Assembly (NCBI RefSeq): GCF_003318255.1
Contig: NZ_QOCF01000040.1
Location: 62,001 to 126,000, forward strand
From: Ruegeria sp. A3M17
GTDB taxonomy: Bacteria > Pseudomonadota > Alphaproteobacteria > Rhodobacterales > Rhodobacteraceae
Length of the DNA: 64,000 nt
Direction of reading: 5' to 3'
Made by a program: the position numbers and the translations under genes. Shown one piece after another: positions 9,666 through 15,752 of this stretch (its first letter is position 1; every line of letters begins with the position of its first letter). A model generated the notes under the pieces. That model had not been told where the DNA came from and did no database searches. It worked only from the letters and a program-made list of their open reading frames with translations.

Positions 9666-9706
9666 TTTGTGATCACGGTTTTTTTGGGTGTGATCACAAA
9701 ATGCAA
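9666..9706. promoter_or_regulatory. Tandem GTGATCAC element upstream of suc operon
   Basis: Two perfect 8-bp palindromes GTGATCAC at 9669-9676 and 9690-9697, centres 21 bp apart. The second is extended to TGTGATCACA and followed by AAATGCAA. The same arrangement with identical spacing and flanks is found upstream of sdhC (15712-15752). The element lies 106-146 bp upstream of sucC. Two binding sites two helical turns apart suggest cooperative binding of a dimeric regulator to one face of the DNA. The regulator is unknown. Confidence 0.75.
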
Positions 9707-9866
9707 TGAAGATAACCCGTTTGATTCGTCGTAGGTGACGGCCTTTAGAATAAAGAGAGAATTCAGCTAGCGCTAAACCTAGCCGTCCGCCGAAATGGCG
9801 GATTCAAACGTTTACATGGCAGCTGTGCCGGGGACATGTCGATTCAATGGCGCCGTAATCGTCCAA

Positions 9867-9900
9867 AGAAAAACCCGGCTCACCAATGGTGAACCGGGTT
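9867..9900 (-). terminator. Intrinsic terminator of mdh
   Basis: A 13-bp stem (9872-9884 with 9888-9900, one G-T pair), 3-base loop, then TTTTTC on the minus strand. It starts about 22 bp past the mdh stop codon. This is a textbook rho-independent terminator and implies that suc has its own promoter. Confidence 0.9.
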
Positions 9901-9922
9901 CTGAATTATCTTTGCAGAGGGA

Positions 9923-10885
9923 TCAGGCCAGCGAGCTGTCGATGCCCTTGCACGCTTCGATCAGGCCTTTGACGGCGTTGACCGAATTGTCGAACCCGGC
10001 TTGTTCGTCTTCGTTCAGCTTGATGTCGACGATCCGTTCGACGCCACCGGCACCGATCACGGTCGGTACCCCAACATACATGCCATCCACGCCCAGCTCA
10101 CCGTTGCAATAGGCGGCGCAAGGCAGAACGCGTTTCTGGTCTTTCAGATAGGCTTCGGCCATTTCGATCGCCGACGTGGCAGGCGCGTAATAGGCCGAAC
10201 CGGTCTTCAGCAGGCCAACGATTTCGGCACCGCCATCACGGGTGCGCTGAACGATGGCGTCCAGTTTGTCCTGCGTGGTCCAGCCCATCTCGACCAGATC
10301 GGGCAGGGGGATACCGGCAACGGTCGAATAACGAACCGACGGCACCATGGTGTCGCCGTGGCCGCCCAGAACAAACGCGGTGACGTCGCGCATCGAGACG
10401 TTGAACTCTTCCGACAGGAAGTGTGCGAAACGTGCCGAGTCCAGAACACCAGCCATGCCACAGACTTTGTTGTGCGGCAGGCCCGAGAACTCACGCAGAG
10501 CCCAGACCATCGCGTCCAGCGGGTTGGTGATGCAGATCACGAACGCGTCGGGTGCGTGGGCTGCAATGCCTTCGCCAACCGACTTCATGACTTTTAGGTT
10601 AATGCCCAGCAGGTCATCGCGGCTCATGCCAGGTTTGCGGGCGACGCCAGCGGTGACGATGCAGACGTCTGCGCCTGCGATATCGGCATAGTCGCTGGTG
10701 CCGGACATGGCTGCGTCGAACCCTTCCGAGGGGCCGGATTCGGCGATGTCGAGCGCTTTGCCCTGCGGCAGTCCGTCTGCGATGTCGAACAGGACAACGT
10801 CACCCAGTTCTTTGACAGCTGCGAGGTGCGCAAGCGTGCCGCCGATGTTCCCAGCGCCGATAAGCGCAATCTTGGGTCTGGCCAT
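9923..10885 (-). CDS. mdh: Malate dehydrogenase (LDH-like type)
   Basis: NAD-dependent malate dehydrogenase of the TCA cycle. The 320 residues show the Rossmann motif [13 protein letters not shown] (about 10-22), substrate-arginine regions [13 protein letters not shown] near 80-92, TNPLDAMVW near 120, and the catalytic histidine in [11 protein letters not shown] near 174. The length and the [16 protein letters not shown] start are those of the lactate-dehydrogenase-like malate dehydrogenases of alphaproteobacteria. It has its own terminator, so it is monocistronic although adjacent to suc. The divergent TSUP gene begins 160 bp upstream. Confidence 0.97.
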
Positions 10886-11045
10886 TTGGAAAATCTCCGG
10901 TCGGAATTGAAATCGCGGCTGTGCTAGTCGCTAAATGGCTTTCGCGCAAGTGTTCAGCGGCGCGGCATGCAACCGCATACCGTTTGCACTGCCTGGGCTG
11001 ATTGCGCTAAACGGCCAAGGATACAGGCCGAAACCGGGGCGCTGC

Positions 11046-13702: not shown

Positions 13703-13909
13703 ATGGCAAAACTCTACCGTTTGTTAACCGAAGAAGACACCTCGGCCTTCTGCCACAAAGTAACAGACGCACTAGCAAAAGGGTGGGAGCTGTATGGCGA
13801 CCCGTCCTATGCCTATGACGAAAACAGCCGCATGATGCGCTGCGCGCAAGCCGTGACCAAAGAGGTCGGGGCCGACTATTCACCTGACATGAAACTGGGA
13901 CAGCAATAA
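13703..13909 (+). CDS. DUF1737 domain small protein
   Basis: A 68-residue protein. MAKLYRLLTEEDTSAFCHKVTDALAKGWELYGDPSYAYD is a DUF1737 domain (short domain with an L-x-x-GW-x-x-GP/DPS core, often fused to other enzymes). The remaining tail ends MKLGQQ. Its TAA and the ATG of mch share one base (TAATG), so translation is coupled. The family function is unknown; coupling to mesaconyl-CoA hydratase suggests a partner or regulatory role, which is inference. Confidence 0.88.
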   Translation: MAKLYRLLTEEDTSAFCHKVTDALAKGWELYGDPSYAYDENSRMMRCAQAVTKEVGADYSPDMKLGQQ

Positions 13910-14937
13910 TGGCAAAAACCAATCCGGGCCGCTTTTTTGAGGACTATTCCATTGGTCAGGTATTGCACCATGCCGTGCCGCGCACGGTGACCAATGGCGA
14001 GCGGGCGTTGTACCACGCGCTCTATCCGGCGCGGCATGCGCTGTATTCCTCGGACGAATTCGCCCGGAATTGTGGTCTGCCGCAATGTCCCATTGATGAC
14101 CTGGCGGCGTTTCATGTCGTGTTTGGCAAAACTGTCCCGGATATTTCGCTGAATGCCGTGGCTAATCTGGGCTATGCCGAAGGGCGCTGGCTTAAGCCGG
14201 TCTATCCCGGCGATACCTTGCGCTCGGAATCCGAGGTGATCGGTCTCAAACAGAACTCGAATGGCAAGACCGGCGTTGTCTGGGTTCGCACGCGTGGTCT
14301 GAACCAGCGCGATGAAGTCGTCATCGAATATGTGCGTTGGGTGATGGTGCGGAAATCGGATATGGATGCGCCCGCGCCCGAGACTGTGGTGCCCGAACTG
14401 AAAAAGGCGCTGGACGCAAAGGATCTGATCGCGCCCGAGGGCCTTGATTTCTCTCAGTACGATTTTGCTCAGGCTGGCGAGGCGCATCGCTGGGGCGACT
14501 ATGAGATTGGCGAGAAAATCGATCACGTCGATGGCGTCACGGTCGAAGAGGCCGAGCATATGCTGGCCACCCGCCTGTGGCAGAACACCGCCAAGGTGCA
14601 TTTCGATCTGACCTTCCGCCCCGAAGGGCGGCTGATCTATGGCGGTCACGTGATTTCCATGGCGCGGACCTTGTCGTTCAACGGGTTGGCTAACGCACAG
14701 ATGATCGTTGGCCTGAACGGTGGCGCGCATGCGAACCCCTGTTTTGCGGGCGACACGATCAAAGCCTGGTCCGAAGTTTTGGATAAGGCGGAAACCGCCA
14801 TTCCGGGTGTTGGTGCGGTGCGCCTGCGGCTGGTCGCCACAAAGGGCGGCGCGCCGTTTGAATTGAAAAACGAAGATGGTCGGTATCTGCCCAATGTCCT
14901 GCTTGATCTGGATTACTGGGCCCTGATGCCGATCTGA
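13909..14937 (+). CDS. mch: Mesaconyl-CoA hydratase (beta-methylmalyl-CoA dehydratase)
   Basis: Double hot-dog (MaoC-like) hydratase of the ethylmalonyl-CoA pathway; it adds water to mesaconyl-CoA to give beta-methylmalyl-CoA. The 342 residues begin MAKTNPGRFFEDYSIGQVLH, typical of this enzyme. Other features are PIDDLAAFHVVFGKTVPDIS near 62-81, the first-domain YAEGRWLKPVYPGDTLRSES near 86-105 and the second-domain hot-dog near 170-330. The neighbour mcl2 belongs to the same pathway, which supports the specific call over a generic MaoC dehydratase. It ends the four-gene unit. Confidence 0.9.
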   Translation: MAKTNPGRFFEDYSIGQVLHHAVPRTVTNGERALYHALYPARHALYSSDEFARNCGLPQCPIDDLAAFHVVFGKTVPDISLNAVANLGYAEGRWLKPVYPGDTLRSESEVIGLKQNSNGKTGVVWVRTRGLNQRDEVVIEYVRWVMVRKSDMDAPAPETVVPELKKALDAKDLIAPEGLDFSQYDFAQAGEAHRWGDYEIGEKIDHVDGVTVEEAEHMLATRLWQNTAKVHFDLTFRPEGRLIYGGHVISMARTLSFNGLANAQMIVGLNGGAHANPCFAGDTIKAWSEVLDKAETAIPGVGAVRLRLVATKGGAPFELKNEDGRYLPNVLLDLDYWALMPI

Positions 14938-14994
14938 CACTAGTGGTGACATTCATTTGATCGCAGCCAGCGCCAATCGTGCTAGGCTGTGGTC

Positions 14995-15657
14995 ATGACG
15001 TTGTTTCGCACGATAGCTGCCTGCGCCTGTCTGACGCCACCCGCTTATGCCTGCGATCTGGCATTGGCGCTGGCCGTAGATGTCTCGGGCTCGGTGGATT
15101 CGACCGAGTATCGAATTCAGATGGATGGCCTTGCTGCGGGGTTGCGCGATCCAATTGTGTCCGAGGCGCTGGTGCGCGGGAAAGCCCGCGTGATGCTGGT
15201 GCAGTGGACAGGGTCCTCTCGTCAGATGGTCACCGTCCCGTGGACACATATCGACAGTTTCGAGGCAATAGATCAGTTTGCAGTGAAGGTAGCCAACGAT
15301 CCAAGGGTCTGGCGCAACTTTTCCACCGCAATTGGCGAGGCGCTGGAAACGACCATGTCCTATTTCGATACGGTGTCGGATTGCAAACGCCACCTGATCG
15401 ATATCTCCGGCGATGGTGTGTCGAACGAAGGGGTGGAACCATCGGACGTCCACAGAATTCTGCGGACACGCGGTGTGACGGTGAACGCGATTGCAATCGA
15501 AGAAAGCGAACCGGATCTGACCGCATATTTCTTTGAAAATGTGATCGTGGGCGAGGGGGCGTTTGTCGTTTCGGCCTCGGGGTTCGCTGATTATCCCGAG
15601 CGGATTCGTAAGAAACTGCTGCGCGAGGTGACCCAGCAAACCGCTGATCTGAAATAG
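14995..15657 (+). CDS. Secreted DUF1194 (von Willebrand A-like) protein
   Basis: A 220-residue protein from the ATG at 14995 (an in-frame GTG at 14989 is also possible). A signal peptide (MTLFRTIAACACLTPPAYA) precedes CDLALALAVDVSGSVD, whose DVSGSVD is a MIDAS metal-binding motif near residue 28. The other VWA landmarks are STAIGEALETTMSYF (MIDAS threonine region) and HLIDISGDGVSNEGV. This is the DUF1194 family, conserved in Rhodobacterales and of unknown function. It is presumably periplasmic and binds a protein ligand through a divalent metal. It sits just before the sdh control region. Confidence 0.88.
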   Translation: MTLFRTIAACACLTPPAYACDLALALAVDVSGSVDSTEYRIQMDGLAAGLRDPIVSEALVRGKARVMLVQWTGSSRQMVTVPWTHIDSFEAIDQFAVKVANDPRVWRNFSTAIGEALETTMSYFDTVSDCKRHLIDISGDGVSNEGVEPSDVHRILRTRGVTVNAIAIEESEPDLTAYFFENVIVGEGAFVVSASGFADYPERIRKKLLREVTQQTADLK

Positions 15658-15711
15658 CCGCACAACAGAATCGGGTCTGCAGGCGCTAACATCATAAAGG
15701 ATGGAAAACTT

Positions 15712-15752
15712 TTTGTGATCACGAGCTTATTTTGTGTGATCACATAATGCAA
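15712..15752. promoter_or_regulatory. Tandem GTGATCAC element upstream of sdhC
   Basis: Two GTGATCAC palindromes at 15715-15722 and 15736-15743, centres 21 bp apart, the first in TTTGTGATCACG and the second in TGTGATCACATAATGCAA. Spacing and flanks equal those of the suc element at 9666-9706. Here the AATGCAA end points towards the gene, whereas at suc it points away from sucC. It lies 106-146 bp upstream of the sdhC ATG. Confidence 0.78.

Follow-up and report, generated by a model that had tools for sequence, protein, structure and literature searches.

AkgR is a GntR-family regulator that was reportedly named in a 2015 mBio paper on CceR and AkgR in Rhodobacter sphaeroides; we take it to be the product of RSP_0981 and to directly activate genes of the tricarboxylic acid (TCA) cycle. 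The GntR regulator RSP_0981 is predicted to control sucCD, sdh, and sucAB (PMC4344238), and AkgR is termed an activator with GTGATCAC listed among its sites (PMC6365646). Here, we analyzed a 64,000-nucleotide stretch of the genome of Ruegeria sp. A3M17 (contig NZ_QOCF01000040.1, positions 62,001 to 126,000; hereafter the window), in which two 41-bp boxes, each comprising two GTGATCAC palindromes in tandem, lie upstream of sucC and sdhC. The original prediction from this sequence proposed a common regulator for the two operons that it could not name. Our results suggest that this regulator is very probably AkgR. Specifically, comparison of sequences indicates, with a probability of roughly 0.9, that each box would be a pair of operators for this activator of the FadR subfamily of GntR proteins.

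The window contains two copies of GTGATCAC-N13-GTGATCAC (N13 denoting a spacer of 13 bases), at 9669-9697 and 15715-15743. The pairs end 108 bp before the start codon of sucC and 114 bp before that of sdhC, and the enclosing 41-bp boxes occupy the same position, 106-146 bp before both start codons, as had been noted. The predicted coordinates, palindromes, and 21-bp spacing between centers proved exact, as did the flanks (TTTGTGATCACG on the left; TGTGATCACA followed by WAATGCAA on the right). What did not hold was the description of the 41-bp element as identical in both places: the spacers differ (GGTTTTTTTGGGT versus GAGCTTATTTTGT), and the boxes are thus not identical as a whole. CRP sites have the pattern TGTGA-N6-TCACA and FNR sites TTGAT-N4-ATCAA, whereas TGTGA and TCACA abut without a gap in both boxes, in agreement with the earlier view that these are not CRP/FNR sites. 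Three more single GTGATCAC palindromes were identified in the window (36345, 37711, and 58015), all within open reading frames (ORFs), and the nearest of these is > 20 kb from the boxes.

The paired arrangement is conserved among relatives. Among 54 genomes of Ruegeria in the sense of GTDB, all 54 encode a pair with a spacer of N11-15, with two pairs in 53 genomes and three in one (G013). Among the matches listed, the spacer is N13 throughout the genus except for one N14, which is the third pair of G013 and is located on another contig; the two copies are ~6-7 kb apart in most of the genus genomes listed. In a sample of 295 genomes of the family, with about one per genus, an exact N13 pair was detected in 249, mostly in two copies, and a pair at any spacing from N1 to N31 was detected in 268; a control search with the reversed pattern yielded 0 and 1 of the 295 genomes, respectively. 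Among the matches listed for this search (75 places in 37 genomes), 65 N13, five N12, and five other spacers (N5, N10 twice, N19, and N23) were counted by eye. The order sample returned 144 of 148 genomes, every row being from Rhodobacteraceae, and of 385 genomes sampled from the class, 5/5 members of the family and 2/380 others have a pair with N12 or N13 spacing. A chance origin of the pair was rejected on the basis of the reversed-pattern control (0/295) and of shuffled sequence, since no pair with a spacer of N5-20 appeared in 100 shuffles of the window. Collectively, the paired spacing is kept upstream of suc and sdh in related genomes and is rare outside the family, contrary to what a random distribution away from promoters would produce. 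As an operator, the element is well conserved and of an already known kind, and its paired layout is kept in most of the Rhodobacteraceae. Two family genomes, G317 and G187, carry eleven and six pairs at N1-31 rather than the usual two, which may reflect an expanded regulon or repeats.

The position of the pair relative to genes was evaluated in a set of at least 165 N13 elements from 158 loci, not all of which are independent since some genomes are present more than once. Among those listed, 77 elements precede sucC, 60 precede sdhC, and 28 lie elsewhere. Most of the last group (21/28, among the matches listed) sit in records labelled as other lineages, including actinobacteria, Bacteroidota, and haloarchaea, and by our estimate their number fits chance in 257 billion bases. 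At L101 the first residues of sucC are visible at the end of the contig; at L074 and L105 the element is beside mdh at the edge of the locus, which suggests that sucC probably lies beyond the edge; and at L034 the element is between mdh and sucA. At L099 and L157 the element precedes neither sucC nor sdhC. At L030 (G095:C16:228293-228321) a third N13 pair directly precedes an ORF that by eye resembles a class II fumarase, suggesting that the regulon may have gained another TCA step in G095. All of 20 further chosen elements precede sucC or sdhC, including two in G093 with one mismatch each. Where the two genes are separated, either by 75-190 kb on one contig (G145, G304, and G388) or on different contigs (six draft assemblies), both genes have retained a pair of their own. 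The pair therefore behaves as an operator of the operons and not as a chromosomal landmark.

To identify the regulator, we examined GntR genes, 22 of which exceed the Pfam cut-off in the genome of Ruegeria sp. A3M17, none on the contig of the window. An initial search of the loci surrounding the elements for GntR genes yielded unrelated matches only. The likely akgR is on another contig (G000:C40:110125-110769, minus strand) and codes for a protein with GntR and FCD domains that is 74-75% identical to GntR proteins whose genes are ~3-6 kb beyond sucA in Rhodobacter ruber (G347), Defluviimonas nitratireducens (G348), and Rhodovulum steppense (G349). Family, neighborhood, and shared motif indicate that this protein is likely orthologous to RSP_0981. 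In 33 AkgR-type sequences compared by eye, an invariant Asp-Val stands at residue 205 in place of the last of the histidines that are typical of metal-binding FCD domains.

The motif itself points to the same protein. Among 52 GntR genes from six genomes (the 22 above and 30 of those found in five others), GTGATCAC was detected within 400 bp before the domain in only three, all of the akgR type, and was absent in 49. This restriction to akgR-type genes is the strongest evidence in our analysis that an AkgR-type protein owns the motif. In a set of 33 akgR genes, drawn from the three genomes named above and the 30 family loci with the best scores, 32 have one exact GTGATCAC 16-35 bp upstream of the start codon. 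Visual inspection places this single palindrome mostly just downstream of a TTGAC box, where a bound dimer would overlie the core promoter of akgR. At G239:C1:3357949-3357969, two GTGATCAC palindromes separated by N5 (centers 13 bp apart) adjoin akgR, which is atypical of a presumed autoregulatory site. Outside the family, an N13 pair at L375 (G593:C189:992-1020) is separated by a few bases from a downstream ORF that looks GntR/FCD-like by eye, suggesting that tandem recognition may predate the Rhodobacteraceae.

The distribution of akgR (E <= 1e-50; 268/295 family genomes) largely mirrors that of the pair at N1-31, with 262 genomes encoding both, 21 neither, six akgR only, and six the pair only; the pair-only genomes are drafts of 73-100% completeness. 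We also inspected DNA upstream of sucC in 18 chosen from the 46 family genomes that lack an exact N13 pair. An N12 pair is at the same place before sucC in seven of the eight akgR-positive genomes, the eighth (G253) not being judgeable since its alignment to sucC starts within the protein. None of the ten akgR-negative genomes has a pair before sucC; G161 and G070 have one palindrome with a mismatch.

Several observations weigh against AkgR as the regulator of the boxes. A control GntR gene (G000:C23) also tracks the pair (254 genomes with both, 19 with neither, eight with the control only, and 14 with the pair only), and part of the co-occurrence is thus attributable to shared ancestry or genome quality. 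The pair is present in 14 of 17 genomes with akgR and without the control, yet also in 6 of 11 with the control and without akgR, indicating that the presence profile alone is not decisive. Six akgR-positive genomes lack an exact pair at N1-31, although both pairs are present in one of these, G093, each with a single mismatch. The akgR of Rhodobacter ruber (L243) lacks the single GTGATCAC. The locus number of RSP_0981 points to the sdh side of the region, whereas in G347-G349 the relatives are on the far side of sucA, away from sdh, and orthology is for this reason not proven. Finally, the core of the site is GT-N4-AC, whereas GT-N3-AC or N2 is usual in the FadR subfamily. N4 is the usual spacing of HutC-type regulators, which were considered first for this reason; these regulators (with a UTRA domain) were rejected, as no UTRA match was obtained in G348, where both pairs are present.

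Promoter anatomy was compared across the 77 sucC and 60 sdhC promoters. The spacer is unconstrained in sequence, and the outer flanks tend toward TTT before the pair (45/77 sucC and 24/60 sdhC) and AAA after it (62/77 and 28/60). The distance from box to start codon varies more for sdhC (108-205) than for sucC (96-150), and within the genus there are conserved blocks between box and gene. It had been argued that the asymmetric AATGCAA flank, which points in different directions relative to the two genes, favors looping or blocking over contact by an activator. The two copies in the window share this flank, but it is not conserved among genus promoters (21 of sucC and 21 of sdhC, from the window and 20 genomes). 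Read in the direction of the gene, the pair is followed by AATGCAA in 1/77 sucC and 0/60 sdhC promoters and preceded by TTGCATT in 0/77 and 0/60. With the flank unconserved, and the outer TTT...AAA tending toward symmetry, the asymmetry argument falls.

The conserved pair upstream of both operons supports the proposal of a common regulator for suc and sdh, one that binds two palindromes spaced by two helical turns. We suggest that one AkgR dimer would bind each GTGATCAC palindrome, such that two dimers would occupy one face of the helix at a distance of 21 (sometimes 20) bp and would probably aid each other's binding. Located ~110-150 bp before the start codon, the pair of dimers would probably bring RNA polymerase to the promoters of sucCD-sucAB and sdh. 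At its own gene, the single palindrome over the core promoter would probably allow AkgR to limit its own synthesis. This would amount to a code based on operator number, whereby two palindromes, spaced mainly 20/21 bp apart, switch on the TCA segment from 2-oxoglutarate to fumarate and one shuts akgR off. We regard the operation of such a code across most of the family as slightly favored.

The alternative with the most weight, albeit an unlikely one, is that the boxes repress suc and sdh through looping or road-blocking instead of activating them. With the sites ~110 bp upstream of the start codon, and at a variable distance (108-205) from sdhC, a fixed contact with polymerase is not proven. 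Repression of this kind is difficult to reconcile with the description of AkgR as an activator (PMC6365646), with the loss of the flank argument, and with the location of all other exact palindromes of the window > 20 kb away; looping from one pair to the other, at a distance of 6 kb, may occur, but the pairs persist where suc and sdh are separated. Less probable still is that a different regulator sharing the half-site, such as the AkgR paralog L175, binds the pair in place of AkgR or alongside it. This paralog is encoded in the genome of Ruegeria sp. A3M17 and shares 38-39% identity with the AkgR-type proteins from G348 and G349, and a Pseudomonas GntR protein 32% identical to AkgR is proposed to use the same GTGATCAC (PMC6365646), suggesting that specificity may be shared among distant relatives. 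Against this, L175 is among the GntR genes that lack an upstream GTGATCAC, and the pair tracks akgR across the family.

The two remaining alternatives have very little probability. The ~6-7 kb between the two copies in most of the genus genomes listed would fit a site for chromosome organization or replication that is near suc and sdh by chance, an explanation refuted by the separated loci (three genomes at 75-190 kb and six on different contigs) and by G229, where the box lies between mdh and sucA and is still before the suc operon. Control at the level of RNA, with the palindromes forming hairpins in the leader transcript, would be compatible with a location upstream of start codons and is equally remote, given that the spacer is free in sequence but mostly 13 or 12 bases in length and that the same palindrome occurs singly before akgR. 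Moreover, 8-bp palindromes without a loop make poor hairpins.

Coordinates of the boxes and adjacent genes are compiled in Table 1. Genes were named from Pfam matches for sucC, sdhC, and sdhB and by reading of ORFs for the others. A gap of ~2.7 kb separates sdhA from sdhB (window 18457-21127), apparently due to an insertion into the sdh operon; it contains an ORF with a weak methyltransferase match below the cut-off, an ORF that matches no Pfam family, and a glycosyltransferase on the minus strand. Farther downstream (window 28887-30350), a LuxR-type autoinducer receptor is followed by an autoinducer synthase, constituting a quorum-sensing pair (Pfam Autoind_bind, GerE, and Autoind_synth).

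Table 1. Tandem operators and neighboring genes in the window.
Feature	Position	Strand	Remarks
Tandem operator upstream of sucC (two GTGATCAC, centers 21 bp apart)	9666..9706	.	Same layout in 77 sucC promoters
GTGATCAC palindrome, sucC-proximal	9669..9676	.	
GTGATCAC palindrome, sucC-distal	9690..9697	.	
Tandem operator upstream of sdhC (two GTGATCAC, centers 21 bp apart)	15712..15752	.	Same layout in 60 sdhC promoters
GTGATCAC palindrome, sdhC-distal	15715..15722	.	
GTGATCAC palindrome, sdhC-proximal	15736..15743	.	
sucC, succinyl-CoA synthetase beta subunit, first gene after first box	8367..9560	-	ORF; Pfam ATP-grasp_2, Ligase_CoA
sucD, after sucC	7234-8115	-	ORF, named by eye
sucA, after sucD	3286-6243	-	ORF, named by eye
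sdhC, succinate dehydrogenase membrane subunit, first gene after second box	15858..16241	+	ORF; Pfam Sdh_cyt
sdhA	16649-18457		ORF, named by eye

Marine Rhodobacteraceae are important consumers of labile carbon in the ocean, and naming the regulator defines in them a switch of TCA-cycle flux that is precise and open to testing. Its fixed geometry, the contrast between one and two sites, and the natural N12 and N13 variants make both activation and autoregulation easily testable.

Among described systems, regulators of the FadR subfamily (GntR and FCD; for example PdhR, LldR, and GlcC) resemble the one proposed here in domain make-up and in a short palindrome with GT and AC, and differ in the number of bases between them (N3 or N2 rather than N4). 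A further R. sphaeroides regulator with overlapping targets is RSP_1663, which is presumably CceR. It is likewise predicted to act on mdh and sdh but belongs to another protein family (LacI) and has another motif, [A/G/T]GTT-N6-8-AAC (PMC4344238). PS417_07240 from the deoxyribonate cluster of Pseudomonas simiae is a GntR protein with the same GTGATCAC motif and 32% identity to AkgR, but it has different targets, and a tandem is not mentioned in the portion of its description that was available (PMC6365646). The motif is not described in the accessible parts of a survey of regulons in Proteobacteria (PMC5343134) or of a LacI survey (PMC4052901), and a literature search with TGTGATCACA as a string returned nothing that looked relevant. 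Likewise, no description of the tandem geometry, its distribution across the family, or the akgR site was found in the literature covered, which did not include the original AkgR paper. The closest match is the AkgR regulon of R. sphaeroides, which shares a GntR activator with GTGATCAC among its sites (PMC6365646) and suc and sdh as predicted targets of RSP_0981 (PMC4344238). The regulator, half-site, and targets are already published, and what this locus possibly adds is the tandem geometry and self-regulation through a single site.

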